A DNA stretch of 64,000 nucleotides, from positions 2,790,001 through 2,854,000 of the forward strand of contig NZ_AP022619.1 in NCBI RefSeq assembly GCF_010731655.1. Reading direction: 5' to 3'. The position numbers were made by a program, and so were the translations under genes. Below are positions 20,235-48,995 of this stretch, in pieces (positions within the stretch are counted from its first letter, which is position 1; every line of letters begins with the position of its first letter). Below the pieces are notes generated by a model that was not told where the DNA came from, ran no database searches, and was given only the letters and a program-made list of their open reading frames with translations. The stretch is from Mycobacterium paraseoulense. GTDB taxonomy: Bacteria; Actinomycetota; Actinomycetes; Mycobacteriales; Mycobacteriaceae.

Positions 20235-22550
20235 TCAGCCGATGTTGGGTACGGGTTCCCCCAGCCGGCCCCCGTCAAGCGGGATCGGCTCAGCGTATCC
20301 GTGGGTCCCGCCCTCGCTGACGCCGAACCGATCGTGCAGCCACGCCATCGGCTTGGGCGCCCACCAATTCCACCGGCCCATCACATGCATGAACGCCGGC
20401 ACCACAACCATCCGCACCAGGGTGGCGTCGGCGAGCACGGCGAGCGTCAGGCCGAGGCCGAACATCCGCATGAAGGACACGTGGGCGGCGATGAGCGCGG
20501 CGAACGACATCGACATCACCAGCGCGGCCGCCGTGATCACCCGGCCGGTGCGGGCCACACCGAGCGCCACGCTCTCGTCGTTGGCGGCGTCGGCCTCCGT
20601 CGCGCCCGGTTTCGCCGGCCGAGCGGCCCCGGACGCCAGCCAGTACTCGCGGATGCGCGAGAGCAGGAACACCTCGTAGTCCATGGACAATCCGAAGGCG
20701 ATGCAGAACAGCAGCACGGGCATGTTGGCGACCAGCGTCCCGCTCGGCGTCGTGCCGAGCGCGCCCAGGTGCCCGTCCTGGAAGATCCACACCAGCGCAC
20801 CGAAGGCCGCGGTGAGCGACAGGATGTTGCAGGCCAGCGCCTTGGCCGGCAGCAGCACGCTGCCGGTGAGCAGGAACAGCAGCGCAAAGGTGATCGCGGC
20901 CATCAGCCCGAGCACCAGCGGAAGGCGGTCCGTCACCGCGTCGACGCTGTCGCGGTTGACCTGGGCGACACCGCCCATCACGACGGCCCGACCGGCCGGC
21001 CCTGGCACCTCATGCAATCGCTTGAGCTGGGCGTCGTTCGCGCCGGAGAACAGCGGCGCCGTGCTGCTGACGGTCAGGAAGGCGCTGCCGTCGGCCAGGC
21101 CGGTGGGACCGGCCGGCGGCCCCGTCCGGTTCCCGCCGACGAACGTCCCGCCGGGCGCCGCCACCGCCGCCACCTCGGGCACCCGCGACAAGTCGGCGGC
21201 GTACCTGGCGAGGTCCGCTGGGCTCAACCCACGCGCGTCGGGGACGACCACCGGCACGGACGTCGCGGGGTCGTGCGCGAACTCGGTGCGCAATTGGTCA
21301 CCGACCTGGTGCGAGGACGCCGACCGCGGCAACACCCGGTCGTCCGGGAAACCCCATTTGACGCCCATGAAGGGCAGGCCGAGCAGGAGCAGCAGCGCGA
21401 CGACGGTCAGCCCGATCGGGGCCCAGCGGCGCATCACCAGCTTGCTCGACCGGTACCAGAACAGCTGCTCGACGGGCCTGCGCGCCGGTTCCGGCCGGCG
21501 GAAGACGCGGCGCATCAGCCGGCGCACGTCCAGTGCGTCGAGTCGGGGGCCCAGCAGCACGATGGCGGCCGGGGTGATCACGATCGAGGCGGTCGCGACG
21601 AACGCGACGGTGGCCACGCCGGCGTAGGCGAACGACTTGAGGAAGTACATCGGAAACGCCACGGTCGCCGACATGGACAACGCCACCGTGACCGCGGAGA
21701 ACAACACCGTGCGACCCGAGGTGGCCATGGTCCGGACCAGCGCCTCGTCTCGGTCGCTGCACTCAGCCAATTCGTCGCGATACCGGCTGACGATCAGCAG
21801 GGTGTAGTCGATGGCCAGCGCCAGGCCCAGCGCGGTGCTCAGGTTGAGCGCGAAGATCGACACCTCGGTGGTGAACGTGATCAGCCGCAACACGGTCATT
21901 GACCCGACGACGGCGAGCGCGCCCAGCGCCATCGGCAACGCCGCCGCCAACAGACCGCCGAACACCCAGATCAGGACCAGGAAGCTCAGCGGCAGCGCGA
22001 TCATCTCCATCAACAGCAGGTCAGCCTGATTCTGGGTGTTGATCTGGGCGTATTGCATGGCAGCGCCGCCGGCGCGAACCGTGACCCCGCCGCGGTCGTG
22101 GATGAACTGGTCCGCGACGGTTTGGGCGTTGCTCTGCGCGTAGTTCTCGCCGCCCTTGAGGTTGACCACGACCAGACCCGACTTGCCGTCGCGGCTGACC
22201 AAGTCGGCGGCCGCTTGCGGGGGGACCGTCCACGGCGATGACACGTTGTACACCAGCGGTGACTTCTTCAGCCGGTTGACCAGGTCGGTGCCCACGGCGC
22301 GGGCCCGTGCGCTGTCGTTGCCGCCGGGAGCGGTCACGACGATCAGCATCTGCTGACCGCTCTGGCCGAACTTGTCGGACAGCACCTGGATCGCGTGGGC
22401 GGACTCCGAGTGGGGATCCTGGAAACCGCCGGGAGACAGGCTCTTGGCGACCGGGACACCGAAGATCGCGGCGGCGGCGAAAACCAGGACGCCGATGGCG
22501 ATGATGCGGCGGGGCGCCGCGATGGCCAGGCGGGCGATCCCCTGCAGCAT
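20235..22550 (-). CDS. mmpL13: MmpL13, intact RND-family lipid transporter
   Basis: This 771-residue MmpL/RND protein has twelve expected membrane segments in two halves. Each half has a hydrophobic start, an extracytoplasmic domain and a five- to six-helix bundle. The proton-relay region of the first half holds LALAIDYTLLIVSRYRDEL and that of the second half GLSMDYEVFLLSRIREYW, the Asp-Tyr pairs of MmpL proteins. In M. tuberculosis this gene is split into mmpL13a and mmpL13b; here the frame is continuous. A GGGAAGGG ribosome site lies about 7 nt upstream of the ATG. The promoter contains a 14-bp dyad. The substrate is unknown; a hydrophobic envelope lipid is likely. Confidence 0.92.
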   Translation of the reverse strand: MLQGIARLAIAAPRRIIAIGVLVFAAAAIFGVPVAKSLSPGGFQDPHSESAHAIQVLSDKFGQSGQQMLIVVTAPGGNDSARARAVGTDLVNRLKKSPLVYNVSSPWTVPPQAAADLVSRDGKSGLVVVNLKGGENYAQSNAQTVADQFIHDRGGVTVRAGGAAMQYAQINTQNQADLLLMEMIALPLSFLVLIWVFGGLLAAALPMALGALAVVGSMTVLRLITFTTEVSIFALNLSTALGLALAIDYTLLIVSRYRDELAECSDRDEALVRTMATSGRTVLFSAVTVALSMSATVAFPMYFLKSFAYAGVATVAFVATASIVITPAAIVLLGPRLDALDVRRLMRRVFRRPEPARRPVEQLFWYRSSKLVMRRWAPIGLTVVALLLLLGLPFMGVKWGFPDDRVLPRSASSHQVGDQLRTEFAHDPATSVPVVVPDARGLSPADLARYAADLSRVPEVAAVAAPGGTFVGGNRTGPPAGPTGLADGSAFLTVSSTAPLFSGANDAQLKRLHEVPGPAGRAVVMGGVAQVNRDSVDAVTDRLPLVLGLMAAITFALLFLLTGSVLLPAKALACNILSLTAAFGALVWIFQDGHLGALGTTPSGTLVANMPVLLFCIAFGLSMDYEVFLLSRIREYWLASGAARPAKPGATEADAANDESVALGVARTGRVITAAALVMSMSFAALIAAHVSFMRMFGLGLTLAVLADATLVRMVVVPAFMHVMGRWNWWAPKPMAWLHDRFGVSEGGTHGYAEPIPLDGGRLGEPVPNIG

Positions 22551-22607: not shown

Positions 22608-22638
22608 AACCTAACAAACGTTAGTTTTCACGCGTCAA
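22608..22638 (-). promoter_or_regulatory. mmpL13 promoter with CTAAC-N4-GTTAG operator
   Basis: On the minus strand TTGACG (22638-22633) and TAGGTT (22613-22608) are spaced by 19 bp. The dyad CTAACAAACGTTAG at 22611-22624 sits in the spacer and overlaps the -10 element. That layout is classic for repression by a TetR-type dimer. No TetR gene is adjacent; the one at the window start is 22 kb away. Confidence 0.5.
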
Positions 22639-36683: not shown

Positions 36684-37673
36684 TTACCCCTCATTTCCCT
36701 TGCGGCGCTTGGCCGCCAGCGCGGCCAAGCGTTGCAACACCGGCTGCGGCAGAACGCGCGCCGCGAATACCATCGCCCGTTGGCCCGCTGTCAGCGGCCA
36801 CGCCCCGTCCCGCATCGAACCCTGCCTGGGTATGCCCAGCACGACCCGCGACACGTGATGCATGCCGGAAGCCGGCAGGATCCTGTTGGCGGCCAGCAAC
36901 ATCGACGCGTCCGGCCCGACGCCGCGGCGGCGGAAGGGCGCTCGGTCATCCAGCGCCTCGAGCAGGCCGTCGGTGAACTTCTCGGGTCGCCGGGCCAGTT
37001 TCATCGCGGCCCTGCCCCGGCTGTTCATCGTGTTGTGCAGCCGGGCGTACGGGCCGCCGAAGTCGCGATTGTCGGTGGTGCCCGCGTCGGTGATGATCTC
37101 GGTGTCGTACGTGCCCGCCACCAACACGGTGACACCCAAACCGAAGGGCGCGATCTCGCACGCCATGGCCTCACCCCACCGCTCCAACGCGCCCTTGGCC
37201 GCCGAGTACGGCGCGGTGGCCGGCTGGCCGCGCACGCCGGCCGCGCTGGAAACCAGGACGATGCGCCCCCCGCCGGCCGCCCGCATCGATGGCAGCAATG
37301 CCTGGGTGAGCGCAACGGGGCCCATGACAGTGGTTTGGAACATCCTCTGCCACAACGCCATATCGGTCTCCTCCACCATTCCGGCGGCGGAGATGCCGGC
37401 GTTGTGCACCACCGCGTAGGGAGCGCCGACGGCCTCCTCGATCGCCTTGGCCGCCGCGGAGATCGACGCGGGGTCCAGCAGATCGAGCTGCACGCCGACC
37501 AGCCGATCGTCGTCCTGGTGGGCACCCGTGGCCTCCCGAAGCAGCGGGAGCCCGCCGTCGGGCGTCCGCATGGCCGCGACCACGCGCCAGCCTTCGCGGT
37601 ACAGGCGCACCGCCGACGCGAACCCCAGACCTCGGGACGCGCCGGTCAGGACGACGCTGCGCGGCTCAGCCAT
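36684..37673 (-). CDS. Short-chain dehydrogenase/reductase
   Basis: This 329-residue classical SDR has the NADP-type motif VVLTGASRGLGFASAVRLYREG with an arginine after strand 2 (VVAAMRTPDG), HNAGISAAG, and catalytic Ser-Tyr-Lys in IVLVSSAAGVRGQPATAPYSAAK. An extra C-terminal stretch of about 80 residues (from LEALDDRAPFRRRGVG to the end) contains a hydrophobic end that may attach to membrane, as in retinol/steroid dehydrogenase-like SDRs. The start at 37673 overlaps the AveC-like gene by 8 bp. It is followed by the P450 with a 2-bp gap. Confidence 0.88.
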   Translation of the reverse strand: MAEPRSVVLTGASRGLGFASAVRLYREGWRVVAAMRTPDGGLPLLREATGAHQDDDRLVGVQLDLLDPASISAAAKAIEEAVGAPYAVVHNAGISAAGMVEETDMALWQRMFQTTVMGPVALTQALLPSMRAAGGGRIVLVSSAAGVRGQPATAPYSAAKGALERWGEAMACEIAPFGLGVTVLVAGTYDTEIITDAGTTDNRDFGGPYARLHNTMNSRGRAAMKLARRPEKFTDGLLEALDDRAPFRRRGVGPDASMLLAANRILPASGMHHVSRVVLGIPRQGSMRDGAWPLTAGQRAMVFAARVLPQPVLQRLAALAAKRRKGNEG

Positions 37674-38808
37674 GCGCGCTCGGGGTTGCGCAGGCGCCCA
37701 CGCCCGGCGGCGGGGGATCGACATGGGGTCGCCCATTGGGCTCCCCGCTTGCCCAGGTCGACCAGATGCCGACCGAGTACGGACCTTGCGCACCAGCCTT
37801 CTCGTAATAGCCTTGCGGGTCATACACTTTCGCCTCGGGGTACGGCCACGGGCACGCGACGGAGGTGGCCGCGTGGCTGACCTTGATGATCCAGAACCAC
37901 GCCCCGTAGGCGAAGTAGGACACGTTGATGATGGCGAACATCACCAGGAACGTGCCGAGCACCGGACGCGTCGGGAAGATCTTGGCCTTCGCGGCCAGCT
38001 TCTCCGCCACCGATTTACCGGTGTCGTCGCGGTAGCAGAGGATTGCCGCCGGCACCATCACGAAGGTCACCGAGAACGACTCCCAGATCAGCGGGAACTG
38101 GAACGTCGTGCCGGTGAACACCGAGCCCCACGGGATCACCTGGGAGTAGATGTACATGCCCATGTGGACGAGCTGAATCTCCAGCCAGGCGTCGAAGACG
38201 AAGCCGATCACACATGTCAGCAGGCCCAGGCTGATCAGCGGGTGGCGCGACACGAACGCCGTCGGACCGTACTTGGCCTGCAGTTTGCGCAGGATCCAGA
38301 TCGCCGGGAAGTAGGGTCCGAAATAGAAAGTGACGTACCCGAAGACGACGAACGGCTCGACGGTGGGCGATAGTGACACCAGCGGCCAGGACTCCGGCCA
38401 GTGGATGAGGTCGGGGTTGTACACGGCGAACGGGGCCCAGTTCATGATCGGGTCCTGCCACACGATCAGAGTGGTGCACAGGAACATCAGCATCACCGGG
38501 CTGCCCGGATTGCGGCGCCAGCCCCTGACGAACACCGCGAGCAGGACGAGCAGCATGATGACGGTGGAGATGTGCAGGAAGGTGATGTAGTCCAGTCCGA
38601 AGATGAACCGCACCGGACGGGGCCGCCCCTGCACATTCGGGTTGGCGACTCGCGGGTCGAGGGCGACGCGGCAATTCGCGATGAAGAAGAGCGCGAACGC
38701 CGCCAGCGCGGCCCCGGCGATCCAGCCGCCCCAGCCGCGCTTCTCGGTATGCCGTGGCGACGCGGATTGCTCCTGCGCCACCGGCGATTCGGATTGGTCG
38801 GTGCTCAT
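37666..38808 (-). CDS. AveC-like (spirocyclase AveC family) membrane protein
   Basis: This 380-residue polytopic protein has about seven hydrophobic segments and a hydrophilic N-terminal 25 residues. The segments WQDPIMNWAPFAVYNPDLIHWPESWP and FDAWLEIQLVHMGMYIYSQVIP match what I remember of the AveC family. AveC in avermectin synthesis is a membrane spirocyclase/dehydratase. Numerous mycobacterial homologues exist with unknown substrates. Conserved histidine, aspartate and glutamate residues in membrane-proximal positions could be catalytic. I chose the ATG at 38808, 7 bp after the preceding gene, over 38862. It sits between a binding protein and an SDR-P450 pair in one operon. Confidence 0.78.
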   Translation of the reverse strand: MSTDQSESPVAQEQSASPRHTEKRGWGGWIAGAALAAFALFFIANCRVALDPRVANPNVQGRPRPVRFIFGLDYITFLHISTVIMLLVLLAVFVRGWRRNPGSPVMLMFLCTTLIVWQDPIMNWAPFAVYNPDLIHWPESWPLVSLSPTVEPFVVFGYVTFYFGPYFPAIWILRKLQAKYGPTAFVSRHPLISLGLLTCVIGFVFDAWLEIQLVHMGMYIYSQVIPWGSVFTGTTFQFPLIWESFSVTFVMVPAAILCYRDDTGKSVAEKLAAKAKIFPTRPVLGTFLVMFAIINVSYFAYGAWFWIIKVSHAATSVACPWPYPEAKVYDPQGYYEKAGAQGPYSVGIWSTWASGEPNGRPHVDPPPPGVGACATPSAHG

Positions 38809-38815
38809 GTCAGCC

Positions 38816-39928
38816 TCACTCTCCGAAGCGATCGACCAGGTGGGAGTTGGTGCCGTCGGCATCCAGGGTCCGGGCCACCAGATAGCCGGCGCCCATCCAC
38901 GCGCGGCGAGTCCATTTCCCGAAGGAGACGCGGGTGCCCGGCGAGCCCGAGGCGGCGGGCATCATCTTCACCCGCTCCAGCGCTTCCTTGACGCCGCGCG
39001 GGCTGAGCGGGTGAGCGTCGGCGAACGCGCGGACGAGGGTGGCGGCCACGTCGTGGTTGACCACCACCACGCAATATTCGGGACGGCTGCCATCGTATTT
39101 CGTTGCGTAACGGTCGAGGAATTCCTGACCGAGCCGGTTCGCCTCGTCGTACTGATCGACCCCGACCCACCCCATGAACGCATTCCACATGATCGGGTTC
39201 ACCCAGGCGTTCTGGAAAGCCGTGGTGGTGAATCGCGGTGGATCCCAATTCACGGCTTCCAGCGCGGGGTTGATGAAGACGATGCCGAAGCCGAAACCCA
39301 GATGCACGATCGCCTGAGACTTGGCTTCGTGCAGCGCGCGGACGGCATCGTTGATGTCCTGCGCGGTCTGGGCGATAGGCGCTTCCGCGACGATGCGAAT
39401 CCCGTTGCGCCGGCATGCGCTTCGCAGGTTCTTCAGGTAGCTCTCGCCGATCAGGTTCTGCTCCACGAGGACTCCGATTTCGGAGAATCCGCGTTTGGCG
39501 ACGAGGTCGGCGATGAAGATCGGCTCGTCGGTCATCGAGCCCTGCGGGAAGGCGAAGGTCCACTCGCCCAGCCAGTCATCCGTGCCGGTGACGCTGATCG
39601 CCGGCACCTTGAACCGCTCCTCGATCGCCTCGCGGGTGGGCACGCAGTTGTCGGTGATGTGCGGTCCGAACACCACCAGGCAGCCCTCGTCGACAAGCTC
39701 GCCGAACGCGTCGATGACGGCCTTGACCGAACCTTTGGGTAGACCCTCCACCTCGCGGTAAATCATTTGCACCGGACGATCGAGCAGGCCCTGTTCGACG
39801 GCCTCTTCGAAGATCAGGTCGAAGCACCGCGTGAAACTCGCCATCAGTTCTTCGGGGAATCCCGGTGGCAGCGTGAAGTCCATCAGGTAGCCGACCTTGA
39901 TCGGCTCAGCGCTGCTTTCGTAGGACAT
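38816..39928 (-). CDS. Substrate-binding-fold protein (amide/branched-chain type) lacking a signal peptide
   Basis: This 370-residue type I periplasmic-binding-fold protein (Peripla_BP_6/LivJ-AmiC type) begins MSYESSAEPIKVGYLMDFTL. There is no signal peptide or lipobox before the first beta strand. Later segments LVVFGPHITDNCVPTREAIEE and IPAISVTGTDDWLGEW-type sequence belong to the fold. Without export it cannot serve a transporter in the usual way, and no ABC permease or ATPase is near. It may be a cytoplasmic ligand sensor like AmiC, or may bind an intermediate. GGAGG lies 5 nt upstream of the ATG. It is first in the five-gene operon. Confidence 0.82.
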   Translation of the reverse strand: MSYESSAEPIKVGYLMDFTLPPGFPEELMASFTRCFDLIFEEAVEQGLLDRPVQMIYREVEGLPKGSVKAVIDAFGELVDEGCLVVFGPHITDNCVPTREAIEERFKVPAISVTGTDDWLGEWTFAFPQGSMTDEPIFIADLVAKRGFSEIGVLVEQNLIGESYLKNLRSACRRNGIRIVAEAPIAQTAQDINDAVRALHEAKSQAIVHLGFGFGIVFINPALEAVNWDPPRFTTTAFQNAWVNPIMWNAFMGWVGVDQYDEANRLGQEFLDRYATKYDGSRPEYCVVVVNHDVAATLVRAFADAHPLSPRGVKEALERVKMMPAASGSPGTRVSFGKWTRRAWMGAGYLVARTLDADGTNSHLVDRFGE

Positions 39929-39971: not shown

Positions 39972-39986
39972 AACCTAATTTTTGTT
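39972..39986. promoter_or_regulatory. Cluster dyad site A, upstream of the binding-protein operon
   Basis: AACCTAATTTTTGTT on the plus strand matches 12 of 15 positions of site D (AACCAAATCTTTGTT). It lies 44 bp upstream of the ATG at 39928 in the 90-bp gap after the AAA gene. I could not pair it with clear -35/-10 hexamers, so it is weaker evidence than sites B, C and E. Confidence 0.45.
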
Positions 39987-40018
39987 CAGACCCTAGCGGG
40001 GGGCGTATGCAGCGTCAA

Positions 40019-40873
40019 TCATTCGGCCGCTCCGCCCAGATAGATCTCGATCATCTCGCCCAGGGCCCTGCCCACCGCCATGTCGTCGGTCAGCGGCCCC
40101 GCGATCGCGGCCCGGGCCGCCTCGCGCATGGTGAGCCCCTCCGCTACCAGCCTGCCCGCGGCGATCAGCACGCGGGTCGACGCGACCTCGCGCAGCCCGC
40201 CGGTTTCCAGCCGGCGGATGGCCTGCCCTAAGCGCACCAGTTCCGCGGCGGTGGCACCGTCCACGCCGGCCTCGTGCGCGACGATCCCCTCTTCGACATC
40301 GGCTGCGGGAAAACCGAATTCGATGGCGACCATCCGCTGCCGGGTCGAATCCTTGAGGTCTTTCAGCACGCTCTGGTAGCCGGGGTTGTAGGACACCACC
40401 AGGCCGAAGCCGGGCGCCGCGTCCAGCGTGACACCGAGCCGCTCGATCGGCAGCTGCCGCCGGTGATCGGCGAGCGGGTGCAGGACCACGGTGGTGTCCT
40501 GGCGGGCCTCCACCACCTCGTCGAGGTAGCAGATCGCCCCTTCGCGCACGGCGCGCGTCAGCGGCCCGTCCACCCACACGGTTTCGTCGCCCTGCAGTAG
40601 GTACCGGCCGACCAGGTCGGCGGTGGTGAGGTCGTCATGGCAGGCGACCGTGATGAGCGGCCGGCCGAGATCGTGGGCCATGGCCTCGACGAATCGGGTC
40701 TTGCCACACCCCGTGGGCCCCTTCAGGACGAGGGCCAGACCCTGGCGGTACGCCGCCTTGAAAATGGCTTCCTCGCCGCCGATCGCCCGGTAGTAGGGAC
40801 GCGACCCCTCAGCCCCGGGCATCGCGCCGTTCCGGTGCACCAGCCCGGACTCGTTGGCCATCGCTTCTGTCAT
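40019..40873 (-). CDS. MoxR-type AAA ATPase (CbbQ/NorQ/GvpN subfamily)
   Basis: This 284-residue ATPase of the AAA+ MoxR clade has Walker A GPTGCGKT (residues 52-59), Walker B AICYLDEV (about 111-118) and sensor 1 [30 protein letters not shown] is typical of CbbQ/NorQ. These ATPases form hexamers that work with a VWA partner to activate a metalloenzyme, such as Rubisco (CbbQ/CbbO) or nitric oxide reductase (NorQ/NorD). The partner gene lies 86 bp upstream on the same strand. No Rubisco or NOR is in the window, so the client is unknown. It has its own dyad-containing promoter. Confidence 0.9.
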
Positions 40874-40882
40874 GGTGAATGC

Positions 40883-40912
40883 ACCCTATCGCGGAACAGA
40901 TGTTTGTTTCAA
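40883..40912 (-). promoter_or_regulatory. AAA ATPase promoter with dyad site B
   Basis: On the minus strand TTGAAA (40912-40907) and TAGGGT (40888-40883) are 18 bp apart, and the ATG follows the -10 by 9 nt. Site B, AAACAAACATCTGTT (40909-40895), overlaps the -35 and the spacer. Six bases separate its GTT end from the -10, as at site C. Confidence 0.65.
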
Positions 40913-40959
40913 GCTCTCTGACGAGCGGGTTTAGGATGGGCAATTGATTCCCCCGGCGC

Positions 40960-42666
40960 TCACGACACCCGGCGCCGGACCTCGGCCGAGCGCAGCGCGG
41001 ACCGGAACAGCGGGCCGATCACGCCGGCGAGTTGGTCCGGGCGCGCGATCGTGGCATGCGCGGCGCTACCGAACACCCGGCGCAACGACTGCACGTCGGT
41101 ACCCGCGCCGACGGTCAGGCATACGCAGCCGGTGCCGCGGCGGCGGGCCTCGGTCAAGGCGCGGCGCGCATCGGCGGCACCGTAGGCCCGCTCGTAGCCG
41201 TGGTCGTAGGCCAGTCCATCGGACAGCACCACCAGCAGCCGCCGCGAAGTCCCGCCGCGCGCCTCCAGCACCGCCGACCCGTGCCGGATGGCCGCGCCCA
41301 GGCGCGAATACGCGCCCGGCTCAAGGCTGTTGAGCCGTCGCATGACTCGGGCGTCGAGGTGATCGTCGAACCGCTTGACCGGCATCATGTGCACCGCGCG
41401 CCGGCCCTGCGAGCAATAGGCGTAGAGCGCGACCCGGTCACCCAGGTCGTGCAGCGCGATGGTGAGGTTGGCGGCCGCCGTGCGCTGTTGCTCGTGCACC
41501 GTGCGCCCGACCGTGCCGGGCTCGGCGGCCGACCCCGACACATCGAGCAGAAGGAGCACCGACAGATCTCGCCGGCGCCGCAGGCTGTCGAGATACACCG
41601 CCTCGTCGGGCACCGACCCCGCCAGCACCTCGACGCGGGCCTCGACCGCCGCGTCGATGTCGATGTCGTCGCCCTGTGTCTGCCGGTGGCGGCGGTGCAG
41701 GCCCATCCCGAGCCGGGACAGCGGGCGGCGCACGCTGATCGCGGCTTCGATCGCGTGCGTCGCCGACGGTTTGATCTCCACCTCCACCTCGCGCACGGTG
41801 CACCACGCGGGCCGGTACATCTTTCGCCCGCCGTCCCATTCCGGGTAGGTGACGCCGTCCGCGGACGTCGGCTGGTCCTCGCCGTCCTCGCTCGACGTGG
41901 CGGCCAGCGACGTCACCGCATGCAATCCGCGCTGGGCGGAGTTGGTCCGATGCGTCGGGGTGTCCGCACCGGGCGGTCCCCCACCGCTCCCGGTCTTGCG
42001 CGCCGACGAGAGCATCTTCTTCAGCCACTTGCCGATGAAACCGCCGCCGCCCACCGGGCTGGTGAACATGTCTGGATCGTCCGAATCGTCGGTCTCGCCG
42101 TCGTCGAGTTCCTCCAGGTCGTTGGTGCCCTGGCGCCTCGGTACGTGTCGGGGGTCTTCCTTGTCCTGCTGGTCGGCGGCCCGGGCGCAGGCGGCCAGCA
42201 CCTTCGCCGCGCGGATGACACCGAATTCGGGTGCCGCATCGCCGATCGGCGTCCGCCCGTTGGCGATTCGCAGCGAAGCCGCGGGCGAATCGCTGCGCCG
42301 CGCGGTGGCGGGGTCGGCCAGCGACGCCAGAACACCGGGCAGCAGGTCGGCGTTGGCGGTGAGCGCACGGTGACCTTCCACCGCCAGGTAACGCTTGGCC
42401 ACCCGGGGGCGGCGCAGCAGGCGGCGCATCGCGTCCGGATCCAGGCTGCCGGCCGCGATCATCGACGCCTGCACGGCAACGGCTTCAAGCTGCCCGCGGG
42501 CGCCCGCACCGGCATCGATGTGGATGGTCTGGCCGTCGGTCCATGACGGTTCGCCCGGACGCACTTCGGCGACCGCCACGGCCCGGCCCGCCAGCGCGGA
42601 TGCCAGCATGCCGAGGCCGGGCAGCCGGTCACCTCGAACGTCGGTGGACACGCTCGATCTCCGCAC
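40960..42666 (-). CDS. VWA-domain protein (CbbO/NorD-like)
   Basis: This protein of about 568 residues has a helical N-terminal region, an acidic linker (LEELDDGETDDSDDPDMF) and a C-terminal von Willebrand A domain. The metal-binding MIDAS motif is intact in LLLLDVSGSAAEPG, and VVLSDGLAYDHGYE carries the later aspartate. CbbO and NorD proteins use this domain to dock on the metalloenzyme that the AAA partner remodels. I chose the GTG at 42666, which has CGGAG about 7 nt upstream. The open frame up to 42726 would cover the divergent SDR promoter; a GTG at 42651 is another option. Confidence 0.85.
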   Translation of the reverse strand: MRRSSVSTDVRGDRLPGLGMLASALAGRAVAVAEVRPGEPSWTDGQTIHIDAGAGARGQLEAVAVQASMIAAGSLDPDAMRRLLRRPRVAKRYLAVEGHRALTANADLLPGVLASLADPATARRSDSPAASLRIANGRTPIGDAAPEFGVIRAAKVLAACARAADQQDKEDPRHVPRRQGTNDLEELDDGETDDSDDPDMFTSPVGGGGFIGKWLKKMLSSARKTGSGGGPPGADTPTHRTNSAQRGLHAVTSLAATSSEDGEDQPTSADGVTYPEWDGGRKMYRPAWCTVREVEVEIKPSATHAIEAAISVRRPLSRLGMGLHRRHRQTQGDDIDIDAAVEARVEVLAGSVPDEAVYLDSLRRRRDLSVLLLLDVSGSAAEPGTVGRTVHEQQRTAAANLTIALHDLGDRVALYAYCSQGRRAVHMMPVKRFDDHLDARVMRRLNSLEPGAYSRLGAAIRHGSAVLEARGGTSRRLLVVLSDGLAYDHGYERAYGAADARRALTEARRRGTGCVCLTVGAGTDVQSLRRVFGSAAHATIARPDQLAGVIGPLFRSALRSAEVRRRVS

Positions 42667-42678
42667 GCCTGGACTCCG

Positions 42679-42707
42679 TTGACCAAATATCTGTTCCACC
42701 GTAGAGT
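42679..42707 (+). promoter_or_regulatory. SDR promoter with dyad site C; divergent VWA promoter overlaps
   Basis: TTGACC (42679-42684) and TAGAGT (42702-42707) are 17 bp apart. Site C, GACCAAATATCTGTT (42681-42695), occupies the -35 and spacer. On the minus strand TACGGT (42703-42698) is a -10 for the VWA gene and overlaps the plus-strand -10 by two bases, so one operator could control both directions. Confidence 0.65.
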
Positions 42708-42742
42708 CCGGTGCCACGGCAGTCAATCAGGGCAAGGAGCAC

Positions 42743-43720
42743 ATGGTGATTGACTTCACCGGGCAGGTCGCGGTCGTCACGGGCGCGGGCCGCGGACTCG
42801 GTCGGCTGTACGCGTTGGACCTGGCGCGCCGCGGCGCCGCGGTGGTGGTCAATGACATCGGGGGCTCGATGCGCGGCGAGGGCACGGACTCCCGCGTCGC
42901 CGACGACGTGGTCGACCAGATCAAGAGGGCCGGTGGCACCGCGATCGCCTCCTACGACTCCGTCGACAGCCCAGCGGGCGGCCAGGCGATCATCGACGCG
43001 GCCGTCGAGGCGTTCGGGCGGCTGGACGCGGTCATCAGCAACGCCGGCATTTTCGGCACCGTCGCCTTCGAGGACCTCTCACTTGACGACTGGGCCCGGA
43101 TGCTGCGGGTGCATCTCGACGGCGGTTTCTATCTGTCCCAGCCCGCGTACCGCGTGATGAGGAACAACGGGGGCGGCCGGTTCGTGTTCATCTCGTCGTC
43201 CGCCGGGATCTTCGGTCAGCCGATGGAGGCCCACTACGCGGCGGCGAAGGCGGGCCTGGTCGGGTTGACGAACGTGATCGCGATCGAGGGCGAGGCGCAC
43301 GGCATCGTCGCGAACTCCGTTATGCCGACCGGCTTCTCACGCATGGTGACCGAGACCGTCGGCGACGAGAAGTTCCTCGCCGAATCCGGATTCATGCAGG
43401 CCATCAGGCCAGAGCTCGTGGTGCCGCTGGTGACCTTCCTGGCCAGCAGCGCGTGCACGTTCACCCACCGCAATTATTCGGCCGCCGCCGGCCGCTACGC
43501 GCGCGTGTTCGTCGGCCTGAGCGAGGGTTGGCTCGCGGACGCCGCGAGCCAACCGACGGCCGAAGACATCCAGGCGCACCTCGAGCAGATCTCGTCGACG
43601 GAGAAGTTCGTCGTGCCCGCGTCGATCGTGGACGAGGTGCTCGAGGTATGCGCACGACGCGGCGTGAGCGCGATGCCGGGCGAGGCCGATGTCGCCTTCC
43701 CCGAACCACGGGGGAGCTGA
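42743..43720 (+). CDS. SDR related to 3-hydroxyacyl-CoA dehydrogenases of MFE-2 type
   Basis: This 325-residue SDR has VAVVTGAGRGLGRLYALDLARRGAAVVVND, with an aspartate that prefers NAD. SNAGIFG and the catalytic set ISSSAGIFGQPMEAHYAAAK follow. The GGSMRGEGTD loop after the first beta-alpha pair is a mark of the peroxisomal multifunctional enzyme type 2 dehydrogenases (HSD17B4-like). The C-terminal 60 residues extend beyond the SDR core. AAGGAG lies just before the ATG; a GTG one codon on is possible. It is followed by two acyl-CoA dehydrogenases, fitting beta-oxidation of a steroid or terpenoid side chain. Confidence 0.88.
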   Translation: MVIDFTGQVAVVTGAGRGLGRLYALDLARRGAAVVVNDIGGSMRGEGTDSRVADDVVDQIKRAGGTAIASYDSVDSPAGGQAIIDAAVEAFGRLDAVISNAGIFGTVAFEDLSLDDWARMLRVHLDGGFYLSQPAYRVMRNNGGGRFVFISSSAGIFGQPMEAHYAAAKAGLVGLTNVIAIEGEAHGIVANSVMPTGFSRMVTETVGDEKFLAESGFMQAIRPELVVPLVTFLASSACTFTHRNYSAAAGRYARVFVGLSEGWLADAASQPTAEDIQAHLEQISSTEKFVVPASIVDEVLEVCARRGVSAMPGEADVAFPEPRGS

Positions 43721-43726
43721 CCGTTA

Positions 43727-43755
43727 TTGACCGGCTATCTGCTCAAACGTAAAGT
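43727..43755 (+). promoter_or_regulatory. Acyl-CoA dehydrogenase promoter with degenerate dyad site F
   Basis: TTGACC (43727-43732) and TAAAGT (43750-43755) are 17 bp apart, 8 nt before the GTG start. The spacer begins GGCTATCTGCTC, which resembles site C (AAATATCTGTTC) in the same register. Site F covers 43729-43743. Confidence 0.5.
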
Positions 43756-43763
43756 CCCGACAA

Positions 43764-44909
43764 GTGGACTTTTCATATCCGGCGGGCGTGGAGCAGTTCC
43801 GCATCGAGCTGCGCGACTGGCTATCGAAGAACCTGACCGACGAGCTGGTGGCCGCCCGTCGGCCCTCCGGACGCGATGACGCCGCGTTCGAGCTGCTGCG
43901 CGCGTGGAGCGCGACGATGGCCGATGCGGGCTGGGCCGCGGTCTCGTGGCCTCGCGAGTACGGCGGCCGCGGCGCGACGGTTCTCGAGCAACTCGTCTAC
44001 ACCGAGGAAACCACGCGCGCTCGAGCGCCCATGCCGCTCAATGTCATTGGGCTGAATAACATCGCGCCGGCCATCATGCAATACGGAACCGAGTCACAGA
44101 AGCTCACGCTACTCCCCCGCATGATGCGCGCCGACGACATCTGGTGCCAAGGGATGTCGGAACCCGAAGCGGGGTCCGATCTCGCGGCACTGCGCACCCG
44201 CGCGGTGCGCGATGGTGACGACTTCGTCGTCAACGGCCAGAAGATCTGGACGTCGCTCGGGCATCGGGCGGATTGGTGCCAGCTATACGTGCGCACCGAT
44301 CCCGAAGCGCCCAAGCACAAGGGCATCTCCTGCCTGATCGTCGACATGACACTGCCCGGCATCGAAGTCCGCCCGCTGGTGACGCTCAACGGCGACGCCG
44401 ATTTCGCCGAGGTCTTCTTTCACGACGTGCGCGTGCCCGCCGACGCGTTGCTCGGGCCACTGAACGCGGGCTGGCGGGTGGCCACCACCACGCTCAGTCA
44501 CGAGCGCGCCGGCGCCGCCCGGCTGTACGCCGAAATGCAGGTTCGGCTTGAGGAATTGGCCGACGACATCGCCGCGCACACCGACGCGCTCGGTGATCCC
44601 GTGACATTGCGGCGCCTCGGTGAAATCGCGCTTCGCATCAAGTATCTGGAAGTCCTGTGCCAGAGGTCGATCTCGGCCACGCTGCACGGCGGAGACGCGT
44701 TCGGTTCGGCCAGCCTCGCCAAGACCGTGTGGGGGGAAATCGGGCAGGACATGGCGGCACTGGCCTTCGACGTGCTGGGCACGAGCGGCGCCGGCGCGCC
44801 GTGGGCGAACTACCGCCTGACGTCGCGCTCGCTGACCATCGCGGGGGGCACCAGCCAGATCAACAAGAACATCACCGCCCAGCGTGTCCTCGGGCTGCCG
44901 CGCACATGA
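43764..44909 (+). CDS. Acyl-CoA dehydrogenase, large-subunit type
   Basis: This 381-residue flavoprotein has the acyl-CoA dehydrogenase fold: WPREYGGRGATVLEQLV, the FAD/substrate loop WCQGMSEPEAGSDLAALRTRA, KIWTSLGHRADWCQLYVRTD and the C-terminal IAGGTSQINKNITAQRVLGLPR. The usual catalytic glutamate before GGT is not evident, as in FadE26-type subunits that work with a partner. It overlaps the next acyl-CoA dehydrogenase gene by ATGA, so an alpha2-beta2 heterotetramer like those acting on cholesterol side chains is likely. The GTG start has its own -10 just upstream. Confidence 0.9.
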   Translation: MDFSYPAGVEQFRIELRDWLSKNLTDELVAARRPSGRDDAAFELLRAWSATMADAGWAAVSWPREYGGRGATVLEQLVYTEETTRARAPMPLNVIGLNNIAPAIMQYGTESQKLTLLPRMMRADDIWCQGMSEPEAGSDLAALRTRAVRDGDDFVVNGQKIWTSLGHRADWCQLYVRTDPEAPKHKGISCLIVDMTLPGIEVRPLVTLNGDADFAEVFFHDVRVPADALLGPLNAGWRVATTTLSHERAGAARLYAEMQVRLEELADDIAAHTDALGDPVTLRRLGEIALRIKYLEVLCQRSISATLHGGDAFGSASLAKTVWGEIGQDMAALAFDVLGTSGAGAPWANYRLTSRSLTIAGGTSQINKNITAQRVLGLPRT

Positions 44910-46009
44910 ATCTCGAACTCACCGACGAGCAGGTGGCGCTGCGCGACACCACCCGCCGCTATCTCGCCGAAAAGGCCTCCGTCTCCGATCATGTGCGCCC
45001 GCTACTCGACGACCCGACCGGCACCACCGAACCCGTGTGGCGCGGCCTTGCCGAGCTCGGGACCACGGGTCTGCTGGTGCCTGAGGACTACGGCGGCGCC
45101 GGCATGACGATGGTCGAGGCCGGAATCGTCGCTGAAGAGCTCGGTGCCGCCCTGCACCCGGGGCCGTGGTTGTCGACCGCGGTCGCCGCGGCCAGGGCGC
45201 TGACGCGGCTCGGCGCCACCGCCGGCGCAGCCGAGCTGCTGAGCGGGATCGCCGACGGCACCACGGTCGCCACCGTGTGCTTCCTGGATGCCGACACCGC
45301 TTCGGCTGCCGCGAGCCGCCGGGGCGGCGACGCCGTGTTGCTAGGCGAGATCGCCGCCGTACCCGACGCCGCCGCCGCCGACGTGCTGTTGACGCTCGCC
45401 GAGGACGATGGCGGTCAAGGGCTTTTCGCGGTGCGGACCGCGTCGCCGGGTGTCTCGGTCGCGCCCGAGCGCGGTATCGACCAGACCCGCAAGCAGTTCC
45501 GGGTCGCGTTCGACTCGGCGCCCGCACAGCGGCTGGGCGCGGCTTCCCGGGAGGATGTCGCGGCGGTGGTTGACGACGTGCTGGTCGCGACCGCCGCCGA
45601 CGCGCTCGGCGCAGCGCGCGCCGTCATGACGACGGCCATCGAATACGCCAAAACCAGAACGCAATTCGGTCAGCCCATCGGCTCGTTCCAGGCGGTCCAG
45701 CATTTGTGCGTCGACATGTTCGAGACCGTCGAATTGGCCCGCAGCGGTGTGACCCACGCGCTGTGGGCCGCCGACAACGCCGACGCCGACGAGCGGCACC
45801 AGTCCGCGATACGGACGAAGGCGTTCGCCGGGCGCCTCGCCACGGTGGGCGACACGGCCATCCAGGTGTTCGGCGGGATCGGCTACACCTGGGAGCACGA
45901 CGCGCACCTCTACCTCAAGCGGCTGCTGAGCTGGAGCGCGTTCCTGGCGGGGCCCGACCGATACCTCACCGAACTCGGTGCGCGCCTTGCCAACAGGGGT
46001 CATCGGTGA
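44906..46009 (+). CDS. Acyl-CoA dehydrogenase, small-subunit type
   Basis: This 367-residue acyl-CoA dehydrogenase-like protein starts MNLELTDEQVALRDTTRRYL. It has a diverged middle region without the WCxxxSEPxAGSD loop of its partner. The C-terminal domain holds KTRTQFGQPIGSFQAVQHL and FGGIGYTWEHDAHLYLKRL; the latter is characteristic of FadE27/FadE29-type subunits in steroid degradation. It is encoded directly after, and overlapping, the large-type subunit gene. Together they probably form one heteromeric dehydrogenase for a bulky acyl-CoA. Confidence 0.88.
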   Translation: MNLELTDEQVALRDTTRRYLAEKASVSDHVRPLLDDPTGTTEPVWRGLAELGTTGLLVPEDYGGAGMTMVEAGIVAEELGAALHPGPWLSTAVAAARALTRLGATAGAAELLSGIADGTTVATVCFLDADTASAAASRRGGDAVLLGEIAAVPDAAAADVLLTLAEDDGGQGLFAVRTASPGVSVAPERGIDQTRKQFRVAFDSAPAQRLGAASREDVAAVVDDVLVATAADALGAARAVMTTAIEYAKTRTQFGQPIGSFQAVQHLCVDMFETVELARSGVTHALWAADNADADERHQSAIRTKAFAGRLATVGDTAIQVFGGIGYTWEHDAHLYLKRLLSWSAFLAGPDRYLTELGARLANRGHR

Positions 46010-46656
46010 TGGATATCGAGTACCTCCTCACCGCCACCCGTTCGGCGCGCAAGACGCTCGACGTGGACGCGCCGGTCGACCTCGCGGACATCCGGGAGTG
46101 CCTGCGCATCGGTTTGCAAGCGGCCAACGGCTCCAATCAGCAGTCCTGGCGGTGGCTCGTGGTCAGCGACCCGGCATTGCGCAACGAGATCGCCGAGCTG
46201 TACCGCGCCGCCTACCTGCTGCGGGTCGGTGGCCGGCTGATCGCCGACGTGGTGCCGGCGGGAACGCCCGAAGGCCGGATCATGTCGTCGACGGAGTGGT
46301 TGGTCACCAATATGGCGAAGGTTCCGCTGCTGGTGATTCCCTGCTACCAGCCCTACCTGCCGCGCATCGAAGGCGACGAATTGTTTCACCAGGCCACGCT
46401 CTACGGCTCGATCTTCCCGGCAGTGTGGAACTTTCAGCTGGCGCTGCACACCCGGGGCTACGGCACCTGCATCACCACCCTGCATCTGCATCGTGAGGAG
46501 GAGGTGCGGCGGCTGCTCGGGATTCCCGAGACCTACGTCCAGGGTTGTCTGCTGCCGGTGGGCCGGCTGCGCGCCGGGCACACGTTCCGGCCCGCCCGGC
46601 GACGGCCCGTCGGCGAGGTGGTCGCGCGCGACGGTTGGGACGGGCCCGCGCTCTAG
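46009..46656 (+). CDS. Nitroreductase-family flavoprotein
   Basis: This 215-residue FMN-dependent nitroreductase-fold protein has the N-terminal RSARKTLDVDAPV (phosphate-binding arginines), GLQAANGSNQQSWRWLVVSD, an insert of about 50 residues, and AVWNFQLALHTRGYGTCITTL. Family members reduce nitro groups, quinones or enones, or dehalogenate. In this setting reduction of a conjugated ring ketone is possible, but this is inference. The ATG overlaps the preceding stop codon by one base (TGATG), with a GTG one codon earlier. It ends the four-gene run that started at 42743. Confidence 0.85.
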   Translation: MDIEYLLTATRSARKTLDVDAPVDLADIRECLRIGLQAANGSNQQSWRWLVVSDPALRNEIAELYRAAYLLRVGGRLIADVVPAGTPEGRIMSSTEWLVTNMAKVPLLVIPCYQPYLPRIEGDELFHQATLYGSIFPAVWNFQLALHTRGYGTCITTLHLHREEEVRRLLGIPETYVQGCLLPVGRLRAGHTFRPARRRPVGEVVARDGWDGPAL

Positions 46657-46714
46657 AATGGTCCCGTCACCGTCGTTATGCAGCGCATTCGTTGCGCCCG
46701 GTCTGATAACCTCT

Positions 46715-46729
46715 AACAAAGATTTGGTT
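46715..46729. promoter_or_regulatory. Cluster dyad site D, upstream of the tandem TetR gene
   Basis: AACAAAGATTTGGTT on the plus strand is AACCAAATCTTTGTT on the minus strand, and is the most symmetric copy of the dyad. It lies 80 bp upstream of the proposed TetR start and 16 bp before a short leader ORF, as expected for autoregulation. Confidence 0.55.
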
Positions 46730-46744
46730 CGGTGAGAGGGACGA

Positions 46745-46792
46745 ATGCGAATGGATGCCGGTCCGCAGTCGTCCGGATGCGCGCACCGCTGA
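46745..46792 (+). CDS. Possible 15-residue leader peptide of the TetR gene
   Basis: ATG at 46745 is preceded by GAGAGGG at 4 nt, the best ribosome site in this region, and opens MRMDAGPQSSGCAHR then stop at 46790-46792. The TetR ATG at 46795 starts two bases after that stop. Terminating ribosomes could re-initiate there, coupling the two. Confidence 0.3.
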   Translation: MRMDAGPQSSGCAHR

Positions 46793-46794
46793 TC

Positions 46795-48075
46795 ATGCCG
46801 CGAGCGGAGTCATTGCGAGCCGGTGCCGCAGCCGATTTGGGTACGCGCCGAACCGAGATCCTGACCACCGCAGCCTCGTTGATCGCGCAGTCGGGACTGC
46901 GGACCTCGTTGCAGGAGATCGCCGACGCGGCCGGCATTCTTCCCGGCAGTCTCTATCACCATTTCGAATCCAAAGAAGCGATCCTCATCGAGTTGATCCA
47001 CCGCTATCAGGACGATCTGGACCGGATCGGGCAAGCCGCGCAAGCGAAGTTGGACAAAGCCGACCCGCGCCCCGTCCCCGACCAGATCGTCGAGCTGGGC
47101 TCGGCCATCGCCAACTGCGCCGTGCAGCACCGCGCCGCCCTGCAGATGTCGTTCTACGAGGGCCCGAGCACGGACCCGGAGTTGATGAAACTGACGCAGC
47201 AGCGGCCCGTGGCCATCCAGGAGGCGATGCTGCAGACGCTGCGCGCGGGCAGGTGGAGCGGCTACATCAAACCCGACATCGACCTGCCGACGTTGGCCGA
47301 CCGCATCTGCCAGACCATGCTGCAGGTCGGCCTGGACGTCATGCGTCACAGGTCCCCCGCCGACCAAGTGGCCGCGCTCCTATGCCGAATCATGTTGCAG
47401 GGGCTGGCAACCCGGCCGCCCACCGACTCAGCGCTCGACCGATCCAACGCCTTCGCAGCCGCCCGGGACGTCATCGACACGTGGTCGGACGACAGCGAGG
47501 CCGACCCCAGCGACAAAGCGGCGCACGTCCGCGCGGTGGCGCGAACGGAATTCGGCCGCAAGGGCTACGAGGCCACCACCATCCGGGACATCGCCTCCGC
47601 GGCCGGCCTGGGCACCGGAACCGTCTACCGGCTGATCGGATCCAAGGACGAACTTCTCGCGTCGATCATGGAATCGTTCGGCCGCAAGGTCGAGGCGGGC
47701 TGGGTCAACGTGCTGCGCGCGGATGCCACGCCCATCGAAAAGCTTGACGCACTGAGCTGGGTCAACGTCAACGCCCTCGACCGGTTCTCCGACGAATTCC
47801 GCATTCAGCTCGCCTGGATGCGTCAATCACCGCCGGACACTCCCAACCCGGGCTGGCTGTACGCGACCCGACTTCGGCAGATGAAAACGCTGCTTTCCGA
47901 AGGCATCCGCTCCGGGGAGATCAGCGTGGACGCGGCATCCACCGCGATGCTCGCGCGGTGCGTCATCGGCTTGCAGTGGATACCGGAGAACATCCTTGCC
48001 GAGGTCGGCAAACGCGCGGCGCTGGTGCATGTCCGCGACACGGTTCTGCGTGGCGTCGCGGTTCGCGCCGGGTAG
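46795..48075 (+). CDS. Tandem TetR/AcrR regulator with two DNA-binding domains
   Basis: This protein of about 426 residues consists of two fused TetR units. The first helix-turn-helix spans about residues 17-65 (RTEILTTAASLIAQSGLRTS, then AGILPGSLYHHFESKEAIL) and is followed by a TetR_C-like domain. The second lies at about 241-295 (EFGRKGYEATTIRDIASAAG, then GTGTVYRLIGSKDELL) with its own C-terminal domain. A single chain may thus act as a pseudo-dimer. I prefer ATG 46795, coupled to a leader ORF; ATG 46777 and GTG 46732 are in frame too. It lies inside the cluster whose promoters share a 15-bp dyad and is the obvious regulator. Confidence 0.88.
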   Translation: MPRAESLRAGAAADLGTRRTEILTTAASLIAQSGLRTSLQEIADAAGILPGSLYHHFESKEAILIELIHRYQDDLDRIGQAAQAKLDKADPRPVPDQIVELGSAIANCAVQHRAALQMSFYEGPSTDPELMKLTQQRPVAIQEAMLQTLRAGRWSGYIKPDIDLPTLADRICQTMLQVGLDVMRHRSPADQVAALLCRIMLQGLATRPPTDSALDRSNAFAAARDVIDTWSDDSEADPSDKAAHVRAVARTEFGRKGYEATTIRDIASAAGLGTGTVYRLIGSKDELLASIMESFGRKVEAGWVNVLRADATPIEKLDALSWVNVNALDRFSDEFRIQLAWMRQSPPDTPNPGWLYATRLRQMKTLLSEGIRSGEISVDAASTAMLARCVIGLQWIPENILAEVGKRAALVHVRDTVLRGVAVRAG

Positions 48076-48078
48076 GTG

Positions 48079-48108
48079 TTGAACCAAAAAACTGTTACCC
48101 ATACAGTT
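48079..48108 (+). promoter_or_regulatory. SDR promoter with dyad site E and second inverted repeat
   Basis: TTGAAC (48079-48084) and TACAGT (48102-48107) are 17 bp apart. Site E, AACCAAAAAACTGTT (48082-48096), covers the -35 and spacer. A further inverted repeat, AACTGT (48090-48095) N7 ACAGTT (48103-48108), overlaps it and the -10. Confidence 0.6.
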
Positions 48109-48152: not shown

Positions 48153-48995
48153 ATGACTATTGTCGATCGCTTGCGCTACGACGGCAAGCGGGCTCTTGTC
48201 GTCGGCGGCGCCACCGGCATGGGTGCGGCAGCGGCCAAGTCAGCGGCCGAACTCGGCGCCGAGGTGATCGTGATGGACTACGCGCCGGTGAACTATGACG
48301 TCGCCAAGTCCATCCAGGTCGACCTGCGCGATCCCGCATCGATCGACGCCGCACTCGAGCAGCTCGACGGTCCGATCCACGCCCTGTTCTCGGCCGCCGG
48401 CATCGCCGACGGAACAACCGACCTGATGGCGATCAACTTCATTGGCCACCGCCACCTCATCGACCGGCTCCTCGAGAAGAACCAGCTACCCTCGGGCTCG
48501 GCGATCTGCTTCATCTCCTCGGTCGCGGGCATGGGCTGGGAGAACGACCTGGATCTGCTGACGGAGTTCCTCGCCACGCCGGACTTCGCCTCGGCGCAGG
48601 AATGGGTCAAGGCGCACGAAGCCGAAGGCATCATCCACTACGGCTTCTCCAAGAAGGTCGTCAACGCCTACGTCGCAACGCAGGGCTACCCGCTGCTGAA
48701 GAAGGGCATCCGGATCAACGCGATCTGCCCCGGCCCCACCGACACCCCCCTCGCCCAGGCCAACGCCGACCTCTGGCTCACCTTCGCGCAGGACTACCGC
48801 GAAGAAACCGGTTCGAAGGTGCACACCCCGGAGCAGATGGGTGACGTGATGGCGTTCCTCAACAGTGCCGCCGCCTTCGGCATCAGCGGCATCACGCTGT
48901 TGGTGGACTACGGGCACACGATGGCCTCGCTGACGAATGCCTACCCGCCGGGCAAGCCGATCATCGACATCATCATGGGGCGCGTCAAACTCTAG
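48153..48995 (+). CDS. SDR, 3-alpha-hydroxysteroid dehydrogenase-like
   Basis: This 280-residue SDR resembles bacterial 3-alpha-hydroxysteroid dehydrogenase/carbonyl reductase. It has VVGGATGMGAAAAKSAAELG, a VIVMDYAPVNYDV strand 2 end, FSAAGIADGTTDLMAINFIG, and the catalytic set FISSVAGMGWEN ... IHYGFSKKVVNAYV. The loop between serine and tyrosine is longer than in classical SDRs, as in that group. INAICPGPTDTPLAQ follows. AAGGGGA lies about 8 nt before the ATG. It has its own promoter with the cluster dyad directly after the tandem TetR gene, suggesting tight co-regulation. Confidence 0.87.
   Translation: MTIVDRLRYDGKRALVVGGATGMGAAAAKSAAELGAEVIVMDYAPVNYDVAKSIQVDLRDPASIDAALEQLDGPIHALFSAAGIADGTTDLMAINFIGHRHLIDRLLEKNQLPSGSAICFISSVAGMGWENDLDLLTEFLATPDFASAQEWVKAHEAEGIIHYGFSKKVVNAYVATQGYPLLKKGIRINAICPGPTDTPLAQANADLWLTFAQDYREETGSKVHTPEQMGDVMAFLNSAAAFGISGITLLVDYGHTMASLTNAYPPGKPIIDIIMGRVKL

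Follow-up and report, generated by a model that had tools for sequence, protein, structure and literature searches.

Two TetR-family repressors are the closest described relatives of the system reported here: Mce3R (PDB 9b7y), a double TetR protein that represses the mce3 regulon, and KstR2, a single-unit repressor of cholesterol catabolism. We analysed a 64,000-nt stretch of the Mycobacterium paraseoulense chromosome (NZ_AP022619.1, positions 2,790,001–2,854,000; hereafter the window, whose numbering is used unless the chromosome or genome is named), which contains a gene island with a recurring 15-bp word in its promoter regions and the gene for TetR2, a double TetR-family regulator. TetR2 matches Pfam TetR_N in two stretches, and its structural model holds two TetR units that appear to form an intramolecular M1–M2 pseudo-dimer as in Mce3R, with 18% identity in the structural alignment. 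Among solved structures, KstR2 is one of the nearest to the single TetR units: it is both the second and the third sequence match to the N-terminal half of TetR2, and the best single-unit fold match to its C-terminal half. However, KstR2 is a single TetR unit with a palindromic operator, given in the available part of PMC3068626 as the 14-bp AnCAAGnnCTTGnT, whereas the TetR2 word is different and polar; the palindrome as given there occurs in none of the six site sequences A–F. A third likeness concerns a target of the regulon and not the operator: the AAA+/VWA gene pair of the island shares the CbbQ/NirQ/NorQ C-terminal domain with the MoxR–VWA chaperone pairs NorQ/NorD (described in the available text of PMC9976466) and CbbQ/CbbO. 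The regulator, operator and cluster were not found described in the accessible literature, in which PMC4482099 was covered without its motif logos and PMC3388012 without its motif table.

TetR2 is not the Mce3R orthologue of this species, since the genome has a separate Mce3R at 984303–984575 on the minus strand (locus L220; 90% identity over 91 N-terminal residues), and the target genes examined here include no mce gene. Mce3R was likewise rejected as the binder, and its regulon as the one seen here: in 14 scanned Mce3R upstream regions of 23 found (1.2 kb each), none reached 17 bits, the best score being 16.2 at −1021. TetR2 is a new predicted double-TetR repressor of an already known kind, with an unusually clear operator. 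Five sites, A–E, together with the weak site F, are very likely operators of this Mce3R-like protein. To the fuller reading, a genus-wide regulon in which a single-chain TetR pseudo-dimer reads a polar word of 15 bp, with the word's orientation bound to the geometry of the promoter, we give a probability of roughly 0.7.

A recurring 15-bp word and its conservation

Sites, conservation, promoter registers, polarity, TetR2 co-occurrence and the fold model were all computed. The preliminary description of this stretch placed a shared dyad in six control regions, and all six 15-mers are present. Site A lies before SBP (encoding a periplasmic-binding-protein-like product), B before AAA (an AAA+ ATPase), C between VWA and SDR1 (a short-chain dehydrogenase, SDR), F before ACAD1 (an acyl-CoA dehydrogenase, ACAD), D before TetR2 and E before SDR2. 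The predicted operators are:

39972–39986, plus strand: site A, AACCTAATTTTTGTT, just past the −10 of the SBP promoter (minus strand)
40895–40909, minus strand: site B, AAACAAACATCTGTT, within the −35/−10 spacer of the AAA-ATPase promoter
42681–42695, plus strand: site C, GACCAAATATCTGTT, common to two divergent promoters
43729–43743, plus strand: site F, GACCGGCTATCTGCT, a degenerate operator in the ACAD1 promoter
46715–46729, minus strand: site D, AACCAAATCTTTGTT, 2 nt past the TetR2 −10
48082–48096, plus strand: site E, AACCAAAAAACTGTT, within the SDR2 promoter spacer

The sites share one word, as had been claimed, but the dyad is imperfect (2–5 of 7 pairs) and the word is polar rather than a plain dyad: its ends are symmetric, AAC-N9-GTT, and its halves differ (C4/T12). 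Nor are the sites centred on the regulator gene; TetR2 occupies the right-hand end of the set, flanked by D and E. Hold-one-out scans of the window, each covering about 127,700 placements with a matrix built from the other four of A–E, ranked sites A, B, C and D first and E second, which bears out for these five the claim that the repetition is not due to chance. The degenerate pattern RRMCWAANNWYTGTT has seven exact matches in the 6.09-Mb genome, five of which are A–E and the others window position 22613 and chromosome position 1477753; there is some circularity in this count, the pattern having been derived from A–E and their orthologues, whereas the hold-one-out test is free of it. The reversed pattern has no exact match in the same genome. 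With up to one mismatch the counts are close, 32 for the real and 25 for the reversed pattern, which leaves near-exact sites as the only informative ones. Searched blind for repeats, the island gave at least 60 families, and the motif is not among the 20 of them listed.

Conservation in other species is, at the level of sequence, the strongest test of non-chance. We gathered 80 loci by TetR2 similarity (74–96% identity) and counted an orthologue's upstream region as carrying the site at 17 bits or more, leaving out genes whose alignment starts after residue 25 or that have fewer than 80 upstream bases. By this measure the sites are kept at the orthologous clusters: A in 59/62, B in 60/63, C in 65/66, D in 77/80 and E in 64/66, with 63 of the 65 orthologue sites at C identical. 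Control regions, upstream of genes with no site in the window, gave median best scores of 4.7 bits for ACAD2 (72 regions), 7.1 for the nitroreductase gene (47) and 6.5 for the AveC-like gene (50). Among sequences having the site and 42 bases on either side, conservation was 94–100% in the site, 41–57% in the left flank and 61–81% in the right, the right flank being better conserved because promoter elements lie there.

Promoter registers and polarity

Seven promoters are readable in the island. Those at B, C, E and F had been described before and are present; three were added here, those of SBP at A and VWA at C, both on the minus strand, and of TetR2 at D. Register counts refer to orthologues having the site.

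39990–40018, minus strand: SBP promoter TTGACG-N17-TAGGGT; site A begins 3 nt past the −10; in register in 56/59
40883–40912, minus strand: AAA-ATPase promoter TTGAAA-N18-TAGGGT (site B); a loose match, chiefly to the −10, is in register in 58/60
42679–42707, plus strand: SDR1 promoter TTGACC-N17-TAGAGT; site C in the spacer; in register in 38/40
42698–42726, minus strand: VWA promoter TTGACT-N17-TACGGT; site C 2 nt past the −10; in register in 64/65
43727–43755, plus strand: ACAD1 promoter TTGACC-N17-TAAAGT (site F)
46704–46712, plus strand: TetR2 promoter, extended −10 TGATAACCT; −10 in register in 73/76, extended form in 64/76
48079–48107, plus strand: SDR2 promoter TTGAAC-N17-TACAGT (site E); in register in 59/64

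For SDR1, 13 of 53 upstream regions had no 17-bit site in that orientation and were left out, so that 40 were counted; in the left-out regions among those listed (L016, L048, L068 and L076), the SDR1 homologue sits behind ACAD2. The promoters fall into two classes. In the spacer class (B, C for SDR1, E and F) the site occupies the −35/−10 interval, and the 6-nt gap from site end to −10 that had been noted for B and C was borne out there and is the same at F; at E it is 5 nt. In the other class (A, C for VWA, and D) the site is reversed relative to the promoter and starts 2–3 nt past the −10. Site C thus serves two divergent promoters, those of SDR1 and VWA.

Under the fuller reading, the left half of the word would lie over the −35 at spacer sites and the right half by the −10 at post −10 sites, and by this tie between orientation and geometry one site could silence two divergent promoters. 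In silico the word behaves as a nonpalindromic operator, as in double TetR proteins of the Mce3R type. A TetR2 homodimer might instead pair like halves on a symmetric dyad, the asymmetry arising from overlap with the −35 TTGACC; the symmetric AAC-N9-GTT ends agree with this, as does the overlap of the left half with the −35 at B, C, E and F. At A and D, however, the word is oppositely oriented, with its left half away from the −35, yet has the same C4/T12 polarity, and A/T-rich dyads belong to class C4/T12 in 139/139 and 65/68 cases. The TetR2 model, moreover, appears to fit the intramolecular arrangement of Mce3R, and we regard the homodimer as unlikely.

TetR2 as the predicted binder

That the tandem TetR protein binds these sites had been put forward as an inference; co-occurrence and paralogous loci now lend it good support, and TetR2 is by far the best candidate binder on the sequence data. 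TetR2 is present in 121 of 198 Mycobacterium genomes (E ≤ 1e-80), and two or more exact matches to the motif are present in 117/121 genomes with TetR2 versus 7/77 without it. Mean exact matches are 4.8 with and 0.62 without TetR2, the reversed pattern giving 0.98 and 0.86. In an order-wide sample of 249 genomes, 27 had a TetR2 match (E ≤ 1e-60), four of them outside the genus. At paralogous and distant loci we further searched the 1 kb ahead of TetR2 for sites scoring 16 bits or more: 12 of 15 paralogues (51–67% identity) and 16 of 20 distant orthologues have one. Some paralogue loci hold a partial second cluster, and the stretches L138, L142 and L149 contain no other recognised cluster gene. 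Site density is 0.89–0.95 per kb near TetR2 versus 0.10–0.17 elsewhere in those loci; the background in the M. paraseoulense genome is four sites in 103 kb.

The sites could belong to another, unlinked regulator, with TetR2 a mere neighbour, and the seven motif-rich genomes without TetR2 speak for this, as a repeat search gave no TetR2 relative in any of them and binding by TetR2 is itself a prediction. Two of the seven, however (G148 and G005), are fragmented assemblies (700 and 720 contigs), and most of their matches are of the cluster-site type. The unlinked regulator would also have to account for the co-occurrence, for paralogous TetR2 loci that retain sites near TetR2 with few or no other cluster genes, and for the presence of site D in TetR2's own promoter in 77 of 80 loci, and we judge it improbable.

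The preliminary description took the island as one local regulated system; a shared operator and a single regulated system are strongly borne out, but the regulon reaches beyond the island. At chromosome position 1477753, 1.35 Mb away, an exact match precedes a DAP_DH_C-family gene by about 160 bp; an aminotransferase gene comes next and, further on, an alpha/beta hydrolase gene. We examined 11 distal matches in other genomes, taken among the matches listed, that lie away from the cluster, read AACCTAAN and have neighbouring genes not known beforehand; the remaining distal matches, mostly of a GGCCAAA-like form, were left out. Eight of the 11 are near a DAP_DH_C-type homologue (36–96% identity) and two more near an aminotransferase homologue; one (L195) has neither nearby. 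Because distal sites lie near the same gene types, the regulon very probably includes a second, conserved operon. An SDR2 homologue (65–66%) stands within about 1.2 kb of the distal site in L189, L190 and L191. A distal-site pattern with a spaced ATG, found in 12/98 genomes, was not used.

We propose that a single TetR2 chain would fold into an internal pseudo-dimer whose two different helix–turn–helix (HTH) domains read the unlike halves of the 15-bp polar word, approximately RAMCWAANNWYTGTT. Ligand-free TetR2 would block RNA polymerase at the seven island promoters, inside the −35/−10 spacer at B, C (SDR1), E and weakly F, and directly past the −10 at A, C (VWA) and D, the promoter of TetR2 itself; it would further control the unlinked DAP_DH_C/aminotransferase operon. 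Occlusion of RNA polymerase is suggested by the location of the sites in the spacer or right past the −10, and autoregulation by site D at the TetR2 promoter. A pathway intermediate, plausibly an acyl-CoA, would release TetR2. The ACAD pair resembles pimeloyl-CoA/IpdE2-type enzymes, at scores below the cut-offs, so that an acyl-CoA of cyclic or lipid type may be guessed, though no more than guessed, as the inducer. The same reading, at the same rough probability, holds that the polarity was retained through duplication of the regulator.

Several points weigh against this reading. Without the A/T filter, class C4/T12 makes up 174/440 and 88/250 dyads, the rest being mostly G-bearing classes. 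Site F ranks 25th in the hold-one-out test, so that the non-chance claim does not extend to it, and it has decayed: at 38 loci with SDR1 before ACAD1, the ACAD1 promoter (TTGACC-N16-19-TANNNT) is kept in 36, but only 15 have an operator that reaches 17 bits. For Mce3R the described operator measures 25 bp and is present twice, at a spacing of about 53 bp, whereas here we find a single 15-bp site per promoter (one match of the word per promoter region in the window; a second, weaker site of another form is possible). The orthologous loci are related and their counts not independent, and the Fisher value for co-occurrence (p ~5e-40, uncorrected for phylogeny) overstates independence because TetR2 presence follows phylogeny. 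Four of the 121 TetR2 genomes have fewer than two exact matches, and the 1 kb ahead of TetR2 is free of sites in 3/15 paralogue and 4/20 distant loci. At four short loci outside the genus (41–55% identity, 4 kb each), L178–L180 are without a site and L181 has one just downstream of the TetR2 relative. Binding, repression, autoregulation, the ligand and the assignment of HTHs to halves are what we infer from these data.

Site location alone is also no proof of repression, and TetR2 might activate the island promoters. A protein bound in the spacer or directly past the −10 is expected to block polymerase, as TetR-family repressors do, and the sites lie exactly there; activation is therefore very improbable. 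That the word belongs to a class of promoters recognised by a sigma factor, and is no operator, is scarcely credible: four sites overlap the −35 region, but the word occurs in two registers and both orientations, and TetR2-less genomes are at background.

Other loci show further arrangements. L144 (G193, C37) has two adjoining TetR2 relatives, 65% and 70% identical to that of the window, with sites nearby. In L153 (G134, C4 2980000–2999900) AAA, VWA, ACAD1 and ACAD2 are tandemly doubled, and sites B and C are doubled too. A further, conserved-looking ACCTAATATTTGTTCRGCTCTAGATT site 14–15 kb from TetR2 in G061 (C120 24487), G059 (C419 28764) and G048 (C29 1510) possibly marks another regulon gene in those three lineages.

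Genes of the island, look-alike sites and significance

On the minus strand the island reads VWA, AAA, SBP, AveC-like, SDRm, P450 and aldehyde dehydrogenase, and on the plus strand SDR1, ACAD1, ACAD2, nitroreductase, TetR2 and SDR2:

36684–37823, minus strand: SDRm, short-chain dehydrogenase, presumed member of the SBP transcription unit; its true start is probably inside this annotated open reading frame (ORF)
37666–38826, minus strand: AveC-like protein (Pfam AveC_like), likewise presumed to belong to the SBP unit
38816–39928, minus strand: SBP, periplasmic-binding-protein-like (Pfam Peripla_BP_6)
40019–40873, minus strand: AAA+ ATPase, with the CbbQ/NirQ/NorQ C-terminal domain
40960–42651, minus strand: VWA-domain protein (Pfam VWA_2), start GTG 42651 assumed
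42743–43720, plus strand: SDR1, short-chain dehydrogenase (Pfam adh_short)
43764–44909, plus strand: ACAD1, acyl-CoA dehydrogenase, pimC_large-like, below cut-off
44906–46009, plus strand: ACAD2, acyl-CoA dehydrogenase, pimD/IpdE2-like, below cut-off
46009–46656, plus strand: nitroreductase-family protein
46795–48075, plus strand: TetR2, double TetR-family regulator of 426 aa whose HTH domains differ from each other
48153–48995, plus strand: SDR2, short-chain dehydrogenase

A palindrome at 22608–22627 (site 22613, minus strand) in the promoter of an MmpL gene (20235–22550, minus strand) fits the pattern and was the usual runner-up in the hold-one-out test. Among the 15 closest MmpL relatives (79–93% identity, one per genome), the same core is found only in L200; near relatives mostly read CTAGCGTTTGTT and more distant ones have other palindromes. 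Site 22613 was therefore rejected as a regulon member, and another regulator is likely at this position because close relatives carry altered or other palindromes. Elsewhere in the genome, a one-mismatch site at 587119 (L112 position 9120), AACCAAATCTTTGTC, differs from site D in the last base only and has no ORFs of at least 200 aa around it. Other near-matches are at 697848 and 3180692, the latter inside long ORFs.

Mce3R is the only double-TetR repressor with a solved DNA complex that we met in this analysis, and TetR2 would add a second one, whose operator is short, well-defined and highly conserved and whose family extends over most of the sampled Mycobacterium genomes. Owing to this operator, the question of whether the unlike HTHs of one chain meet unlike half-sites is testable with short oligonucleotides. 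The regulon also joins uncharacterised genes in one probable pathway, namely the AAA+/VWA pair, the acyl-CoA dehydrogenases, the dehydrogenases, the nitroreductase and the distant DAP_DH_C/aminotransferase operon. The word, repeated ahead of genes for lipid-type enzymes, is very probably where this unusual double repressor docks, and its lopsided form would suit a protein that grips DNA by two different HTHs.
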